A stretch of 64,000 bases of DNA. Source: Pirellulales bacterium (GTDB lineage Bacteria > Planctomycetota > Planctomycetia > Pirellulales > JAEUIK01). The stretch covers positions 186,001 to 250,000 of the forward strand of contig JAIBBZ010000001.1 of the NCBI GenBank assembly GCA_019694435.1. Reading direction: 5' to 3'. The position numbers were made by a program, and so were the translations under genes. Numbering within the stretch: the first letter of the stretch is position 1; every line of letters starts with the position of its first letter. A model generated the notes under the pieces. The model searched no databases, was not told the origin of the DNA, and worked only from the letters and a program-made list of their open reading frames with translations. Positions 25,230 through 47,940 of the stretch are shown here, piece by piece.

Positions 25230-26264
25230 ATGACGCGTGAGCATCGAGCACTCCTGACCATCGCGCGGGTCGCACTATGGATCTTCGCTTGCTGCGCGCC
25301 GGCCGCATATGCCGTCGACGAGCCGCGGCCCGCGACCGGCTTCTTGCTCGAATGGGGCCAACGAGGTTCCGCCCTGGGAGAGTTCGATTTTCCCATTGGC
25401 ATTGCGATCAATTCGGCCGACGAGGTGTTCGTCACCGATTTCTACAACGCACGCGTGCAACAGTTCTCCGATCAGGGCGCGTTCATCGCGGCCTTCCCGG
25501 TGTCGCCTTTCCCCGGCGGAATCGCGCTGGATCGTGAAGGCAACGTCTTCGTTGCGCATGGGGGCATTCCCCCCTCGCGCTACGACCAGCCGAGGCAACG
25601 CGACAAGATCGCCGTCTACTCGCCGCAGGGCAAGCTGCTGCGCGAATGGGGAAAATTCGGCACGGGCGATGGCGAGTTCGACACGCCCGGCGGCATCGCG
25701 ATCGACAAGGACGGCCGCGCCTACGTCTGCGACCAGTGCAATCGCCGCGTGCAAGTCTTCGATACTCAGGGCAACTTCTTGACGAAGTGGGGCCAAAAGG
25801 GCTTCCAACCGGGCGAGTTCGGTGGCGACCCGCACCCGAAGGCGTTCTTTGCCGGCCCGACGTTTGTGGCCTTGGACGGTCAGGGCCATGTCTACACGAC
25901 CGAAGCCATTCTGTGTCGCGTGCAGCAATTCAGCTCGACGGGCAAGCCGCTGGGCCATTGGGGCAGCACCGACGCGAAACCCGGCGGGTTCGGCGACTAC
26001 TTCACGGCCTTCGAGCGACAGATCATGCGCGGTCCGACCGGCATCTGCTTCGACGCCACCGGCCGGGTTTGGGTCAACAGCATCGGCGGGCGCATCCAAC
26101 AGTTCTCCGCCACGGGCGACTACTTGCAGGGCTTCGGCCAGGAGGGAACCGAGGCCGGCGAATTCTACGCCCCGCACGGCCTCGCGATCGACAGCCACGG
26201 ACACTTGTACGTCGTCGACGCCTTCAACCACCGCATTCAAAAGTTCGACGTCAGTGGACCCTAA
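25230..26264 (+). CDS. Secreted NHL-repeat beta-propeller protein
   Basis: 344 residues from the ATG at 25230, with a signal peptide ending near AYA. The mature part holds six NHL-type blades, each with the pattern G-x-F-x-x-P-x-G-I-A-I-D-x-x-G-x-x-Y-V-x-D-x-x-N-x-R-V-Q-x-F (for instance DTPGGIAIDKDGRAYVCDQC and APHGLAIDSHGHLYVVDAFN). A six-bladed propeller usually acts as a binding scaffold. No enzymatic motif is visible. A TTG at 25209 in frame is possible but would lengthen the export signal needlessly. Confidence 0.82.
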   Translation: MTREHRALLTIARVALWIFACCAPAAYAVDEPRPATGFLLEWGQRGSALGEFDFPIGIAINSADEVFVTDFYNARVQQFSDQGAFIAAFPVSPFPGGIALDREGNVFVAHGGIPPSRYDQPRQRDKIAVYSPQGKLLREWGKFGTGDGEFDTPGGIAIDKDGRAYVCDQCNRRVQVFDTQGNFLTKWGQKGFQPGEFGGDPHPKAFFAGPTFVALDGQGHVYTTEAILCRVQQFSSTGKPLGHWGSTDAKPGGFGDYFTAFERQIMRGPTGICFDATGRVWVNSIGGRIQQFSATGDYLQGFGQEGTEAGEFYAPHGLAIDSHGHLYVVDAFNHRIQKFDVSGP

Positions 26265-26266
26265 CT

Positions 26267-26294
26267 GCCCGTTGAAGTAATCAACGGGCTGCTG
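26267..26294. repeat. 28-base palindromic repeat module
   Basis: GCCCGTTGA, a five-base loop and TCAACGGGC form a 9-bp stem two bases after the NHL stop codon. Read on the minus strand, the 28 bases match 25 of 28 positions of the left end of the structured element at 47671. The start CAGCAGCCCGTTGATT is identical in both. It is therefore a dispersed repeat that may also serve as a 3' hairpin for the NHL gene. Confidence 0.65.
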
Positions 26295-26364
26295 GTAGCA
26301 CCTGACCGTTCGGGACCCCTGCTCTCCTGCCTGTCGTTCGCTGCGCCACGGGGCCGACGAACCG

Positions 26365-47536: not shown

Positions 47537-47940
47537 CGGAATTCCCTTCCCGAGGCGCGAATTCTCCACCGGCGCCTTTCGTTCGGCACGCGAGTATAGG
47601 CCTGCAGTTGCCGCCGAAGCCAGACGAGTCTTCCGCGGCCCGCGGCGCGATAAATTCACCGCAAGACCCCCAGCAGCCCGTTGATTTTTTCAGCGGGCTG
47701 TGTGACCGCAAGGATGCGGTCTCAAAATGGCGACGTAAGTCGTTATTTTGCAAGCCGTGCGGAGCTTCGCTCCGCACTTGGCGAGGTTGAAATAGGCCAC
47801 GAAGACCTATTTCAACGGGCAGCCAGCCCCCCTGAAATTTACAGCCGCTTGGGCTACAGTCGGTATGCGCCGCCTGCCGCCTGACAGCACTGCCAGCGGG
47901 GGTCGCCGAACGCCTGAGATGGCCGGAGCGAAGTGCAGCG
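47537..47940. other. Divergent intergenic region parA/nagB
   Basis: 404 bases. Most of the right half is the structured repeat element. The remainder must carry the parA and nagB promoters; no convincing -35/-10 pair was identified. The nagB ribosome site is a GGAG about 12 bases upstream of the ATG. Confidence 0.5.
47671..47824 (+). repeat. Structured 154-base repeat element with inverted ends and five hairpins
   Basis: The ends are inverted: GCCCGTTGA (47676-47684) and TCAACGGGC (47812-47820). Inside lie five hairpins: 47674-47700; 47704-47721 (GACCGCA/TGCGGTC); 47724-47749 (11 bp with two G.U pairs); 47757-47777 (GTGCGGAGC/GCTCCGCAC); 47786-47816 (11 bp). The G.U pairs in hairpins 1 and 3 pair only in plus-strand RNA. 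The end sits 117 bases before nagB. The first 28 bases recur at 26267. It is either a MITE-like repeat, an RNA leader of nagB, or both. Confidence 0.7.

Follow-up and report, generated by a model that had tools for sequence, protein, structure and literature searches.

The structured repeat upstream of nagB in the 64,000-nucleotide stretch of Pirellulales DNA analysed here (the window) is a MITE, a non-autonomous DNA transposon. In the reading that we prefer, with a probability of roughly 0.8, the element would be moved in trans by an IS1182-like transposase, its five-hairpin fold is selected in those copies that multiply, and the folded plus strand would aid this multiplication.

The unit in the window and its parts are listed in Table 1. 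Its boundaries moved by 1-3 bases relative to the earlier placement at 47671-47824, and the match of covariance model R1 in the window's own genome (G000:C1:233670-233826) includes both target duplications. Aligned copies have a common outline, consisting of a tetranucleotide, CAGCCCGTTGA, five hairpins, TCAACGGGCTG and the tetranucleotide again. The element ends read CAGYCYGTTGA, the terminal repeats measure approximately 11-16 bp, and no coding gene is present in the element. The inverted ends described in the earlier note are indeed there, as 12-nt arms at 47673-47684 and 47812-47823. Hairpin 4 is the best conserved sequence (consensus GAGCCG...CUUGGCGAGG), and hairpin 5 of the window copy carries a private C.A mismatch.

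Table 1. Coordinates of the element and related features. Positions are those of the window, except for the cores in the last row, which are given by locus.
Feature	Position	Strand	Remarks
Left target-site duplication CCAG	47670-47673	+	Identical to 47823-47826; left and right tetranucleotides agree in most copies
Mobile element (MITE), 149 nt	47674-47822	+	R1 match; 8 large copies in genome
Hairpin 1	47673-47701	+	47673-47684 pairs with 47690-47701; holds left terminal repeat CAGCCCGTTGA
Hairpin 2	47704-47721	+	47704-47710 pairs with 47715-47721; loop AGGA; fold and covariation
Hairpin 3	47723-47750	+	47723-47734 pairs with 47739-47750; loop GUAA; two G.U pairs; fold and covariation
Hairpin 4	47754-47782	+	47754-47765 pairs with 47769-47782; 2-nt bulge; fold and covariation
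Hairpin 5	47786-47816	+	47786-47798 pairs with 47804-47816; 3' arm extends into right terminal repeat
Right terminal inverted repeat	47812-47822	-	Minus-strand reading CTGCCCGTTGA; resembles ends of partner insertion sequences
Right target-site duplication CCAG	47823-47826	+	Same basis as left copy
Mini copy	26261-26295	-	Single hairpin from two terminal repeats; same window; G000:C1:212261-212295
Cores lacking terminal repeats	L087 1520-1630; L089 1502-1615; L090 1530-1641; L280 ~1505-1625

A search for copies, as the earlier note had proposed, returned nine BLAST matches in the window's genome, namely the 8 large copies and the mini copy. By DNA search, copies were found in 9 of the 40 genomes of the relatives set, and by covariance model R1 in 43 of 197 genomes of the order and in 8 of 392 genomes across the phylum. 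The distribution is patchy, with one to about 200 copies per genome; genome G097 contains approximately 202 left ends and G014 at least 14 elements. In the G058 draft many contigs break within the element (e.g. C15, C94 and C97 at 125-138), as a repeat that recently reached high copy number would cause. Other genera of the order contain related MITEs that share this outline, whereas their ends are of the CAGxCTGTGGA type and CTTTTTCCACGGGCAGCTAG (L088, L091, L093, L094 and L095, at about 1500-1630); in L093 and L094 the right part is repeated in tandem, head-to-tail. Distant variants from other lineages of the phylum (L260, L266 and L270 (G374); L262 (G419)) have similar ends, a hairpin loop xGGAT and a different interior. 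One copy of the element core is located on an IMG/VR contig classed as viral (L259, 11180-11206). Neither the MITE family nor the end and core sequences of the element were found in the literature searched.

The five hairpins were confirmed by folding. For 47671-47824 the plus-strand minimum free energy was -83.5 kcal/mol, compared to -48.9 +/- 3.7 in dinucleotide shuffles (z = -9.3; 0 of 200 as good), and the minus strand folds less well (-76.6). As the earlier note had stated, the wobble pairs of hairpins 1 (U.G) and 3 (G.U) form in plus-strand RNA only. Among per-genome consensus pairs G.U was observed 47 times and A.C 14 times, G.U leading in 13 genomes and A.C in 2 (p = 0.007); hence, the plus strand is the strand that folds. 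Covariance analysis of 25 copies gave a score of 0.206 for the five-hairpin fold, compared to 0.115 in shuffles, so that covariation exceeds that of shuffles, as in a structured RNA. In these copies 91.8% of pair cells were paired, and 18 pairs (75 cells) had changed on both sides, compared to 10.6 and 21.2 in shuffles; shifting the partners by 1-3 columns abolished covariation. Pairs altered on both sides numbered three in helix 1 (96% paired), three in hairpin 2, where the register shifts in some genomes, six in hairpin 4 (helices 5 and 6 of the covariation analysis) and four in hairpin 5. Pairing of the two ends with each other, from which two alternative folds had been proposed, can be drawn on paper but does not covary (0.108 compared to 0.105 in shuffles, 25 copies); the ends are alike because they are transposase sites. 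Rfam gave no match at the gathering score, amino-sugar riboswitch/ribozyme included, and nothing convincing at E <= 10.

To locate where selection acts on the fold, private changes were compared with those shared between copies. In G097 (70 full copies) 24.5% of private changes keep pairing, close to the 26.4% that the observed spectrum of changes would give by chance, and they hit paired and unpaired sites alike (53 over 111 paired, 15 over 38 unpaired). Changes found in at least 3 copies, which have passed through a copy that multiplied, kept pairing in 6 of 6 cases and otherwise lay in loops (p = 0.002 and 0.001). When six genomes were pooled and each change was judged against the actual partner base, private changes broke pairing in 76 cases, kept it in 43 and were unpaired in 69, compared to 3, 15 and 27 for shared changes (p = 6e-6). 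Pairing was thus kept by 15 of 18 shared changes against 26% expected (p = 7e-7). In this result G097 carries most weight, subfamilies link some of the shared changes, and a single compensatory pair enters the count twice. Without G097, the contrast in the other genomes, scored against the consensus partner base, was weak (p = 0.23). In G064 private changes mostly keep pairing (12 keep, 2 break), which may reflect that these changes were shared further back in time, or that a degree of selection continues in inserted copies. Overall, selection appears to preserve the fold in multiplying copies while inserted copies drift. The simplest interpretation is that the fold serves the making of copies rather than the adjacent host gene.

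Stems might also be kept by a mutational process alone (template-switch correction of palindromes), or by the needs of a DNA cruciform, without any RNA. That hairpins 1 and 5 are made of terminal repeats would fit, as would the targeting of stem-loops by IS1272, a member of the IS1182 family (PMC5678879). We nevertheless regard this explanation as doubtful: correction should affect all copies, yet the pairing of private changes is at chance; hairpins 2-4 covary although they are unlike the terminal repeats; and a DNA palindrome provides no reason for the excess of G.T over A.C (47 versus 14).

A core comprising hairpins 2-5, without the terminal repeats and hairpin 1, is present as a single copy in four species of genus g35 (Table 1). 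It sits within a large tRNA cluster between tRNA-Asp and its neighbour, antisense to the tRNAs, and is vertically inherited. Its stems differ by compensatory changes; hairpin 4 is near-identical in three species and has lost its top in the fourth. At the threshold used, other genera lacked the core, as did at least two more genomes of g35. A combined alignment including the tRNA-cluster copies was left out of the model, hairpin 3 being misregistered. The core may be a retained, useful RNA. Its narrow range leads us to favour, tentatively, a derivation from the transposon over the core being the source of the transposon's interior. The core, found at one place in four species with compensatory stem changes and, in three, an almost unchanged hairpin 4, would also recommend an independent, trans-acting host small RNA that a transposon happens to carry. 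We consider such an RNA unlikely, however, because at the threshold used the core is confined to g35 and lacking from at least two more genomes there, one of the four species has lost the top of hairpin 4, and copies elsewhere drift after insertion.

The mode of insertion is evident from the flanks of approximately 100 full copies. Left and right tetranucleotides matched as CTAG/CTAG (36), TTAG/TTAG (23), ATAG/ATAG (7) and TTAA/TTAA (2), with 8 C/T mismatches (Fisher p = 3e-10). An occupied target is found in G058 (L119), where the element interrupts another repeat in the order GGGAGAGGG-CTAG-element-CTAG-GGTGAGGG, and about a dozen empty sites of the same genome read GGGAGAGGG-TTAG-GGTGAGGG with a single tetranucleotide. 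Such a matched 4-bp duplication indicates a DDE enzyme rather than an IS200/IS605 or RAYT element. On a 1.77-Mb contig the orientation of copies was random (27:30; runs z = -0.4), without replication-strand bias. A single-stranded DNA transposon resembling IS200/IS605 or REP/RAYT, in which a tyrosine transposase would recognise the hairpins of one DNA strand, is therefore very unlikely: the hairpins at both ends, the plus-strand polarity of the fold, the YTAG beside the left hairpin and the REP-like mini copies would suit it, but the exact left/right match differs from insertion 3' of a fixed tetranucleotide, the orientation is random, and the enzyme encoded by those insertion sequences whose ends are similar is of the DDE type. 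Neither a lack of target duplication nor single-strand, replication-oriented insertion, which define the IS200/IS605 and REP-RAYT elements, was found. In the window's own genome one copy (L005 1626-1900) stops within hairpin 5; next come a GGGGACAGGTCC motif and an apparent REP-associated (Y1) transposase gene, its identity read by eye only. This RAYT-like gene had prompted us to consider a RAYT/IS200 mechanism, which the matched duplications and random orientation speak against. G058 also contains an unrelated paired repeat, GGGAGAGGG-NNN-GGGTGAGGG, with about 40 matches (e.g. C133:5253-5273).

The YTAG target often coincides with the TAG stop codon that closes a long frame, namely on 35 of 124 sides compared to 13% of control sites. 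In G097 (e.g. L108, L097 and L144) the duplicated YTAG often serves as the stop codon of the neighbouring gene. The duplication restores the stop codon, leaving the neighbouring gene intact after insertion, and this may be why such insertions are tolerated.

An IS1182-like transposase likely moves the element in trans, because an intact insertion sequence of this kind, with similar ends and CTAG flanks, was identified in a copy-rich related genome. This 1.55-kb partner in G014 (L295 1205-2751) contains a 510-codon frame, has CTAG on both sides and ends in CAGCCTGTTGAATTAT and CCGCCCGTTGAATTAT. Of the models listed, its protein matched IS1182 best (E = 9e-58) and is also IS5-like; it scores 196 bits, below the curated NCBIfam IS1182 cut-off of 270, and hence the transposase is termed IS1182-like only. 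A degraded partner of 1.08 kb with similar ends and CTAG is present in G005 (L193 1959-3035), and in G097 a third has its right end at 4506 of L191, its gene being interrupted by another insertion sequence. The element thus has what characterises a MITE: it is short and gene-free, with terminal inverted repeats, a target duplication and ends like those of an autonomous element (L295, L193, L191). A search of the window's own genome yielded no matching transposase at E <= 1e-15, which means that its partner has been lost, is absent from the draft assembly or is another one. Other candidates were rejected: the IS1182 gene adjoining copy L098 of G097 has different ends and is merely a neighbour, the ends of the transposase region in G008:C196 do not match, and for IS701 nothing exceeded the family cut-off.

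The earlier note had suggested a MITE-like element adopted as an RNA leader; the MITE is supported, the leader is not. Homologues of nagB were present in 19 of the 20 relatives searched (the window's genome included), and none of the loci fetched from other genomes carried the element upstream of nagB. In G005, G006, G008 and G017 there is an apparent divergent parA start in the same gap and no element. The copy in the window is an insertion peculiar to this lineage, in the gap separating parA from nagB, and probably does not control nagB. In G097, copies showed no bias with respect to gene direction ((+,-) 19, (-,-) 12, (+,+) 11, (-,+) 10). This indifference was one half of what had been named as reducing the element to a DNA repeat only; the other half, a lack of covariation, is contradicted by the covarying fold. 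A cis-regulatory nagB leader (attenuator or glucosamine-6-phosphate sensor) adopted from the repeat is the least probable explanation, for although nagB follows 114 nt downstream of the element, in the orientation of the element, and the plus strand folds strongly, the gap is one between divergent genes, the orthologues of relatives lack the element even where the divergent parA is kept, Rfam yields no convincing match, copies elsewhere ignore gene direction and the two-fold switch does not covary.

Among known bacterial MITEs, which include Correia/NEMIS, ERIC/IRU/RU-1 and RUP, the ends of the last matching an IS (PMC2229807), the element finds its closest parallels in size (<200 bp), terminal repeats, target duplication, stable RNA fold and the absence of genes. 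It differs from them in its sequence family, its YTAG target and its five separate hairpins in place of an end-to-end stem, and in that its fold was shown to be kept in multiplying copies. QMITE1 and QMITE2 of Coxiella have folded transcripts and are a shown source of small RNAs (PMC5896051); they are likewise MITEs with a fold, but have other sequences, another host and other duplications (7-11 nt in QMITE2), and in their case expression was shown. ISPse1, a captured IS1182 member, has 16-bp ends and a 4-bp duplication (PMC3281130). Both lengths agree with the element, and the IS1182 family is the likely transposase source, although the element is gene-free and its partner falls below the curated cut-off of that family. 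IS1272 replaces stem-loops and leaves no duplication (PMC5678879), unlike the element with its 4 bp. GTAG REPs and their RAYT transposases, reported from Planctomycetes too, are dispersed palindromes with a conserved tetranucleotide (PMC3733652); these two features are in common, but the duplication beside the element is a genuine, matched one of 4 bp, and its partner is of the DDE type.

Taken together, we propose that the element, a patchy, multicopy sequence between 4-bp duplications with ends and a target preference like those of an IS1182-like insertion sequence, would have its ends cut and joined by such a transposase acting in trans. The five-hairpin fold of plus polarity appears to be selected in copies that yield further copies and to decay once inserted. 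The plus strand in its folded form, most probably as RNA transcribed from the element, would promote multiplication; it might, for instance, engage the transposase or help source copies to stay tolerable or active. We reason that RNA may play this role in propagation, single-stranded DNA being less likely.

MITEs are usually thought to require only their ends. A DNA transposon that needs its own structured interior RNA (or folded single strand) together with a DDE transposase, and whose core one lineage has kept as an RNA gene fixed within a tRNA cluster, is a tentative and rather improbable extension of these results. The nagB leader is removed as a false lead. Since the interior fold is apparently selected in multiplying copies and neutral after insertion, its part in transposition becomes directly testable, and the approximately 200 similar copies in one genome provide a natural series.
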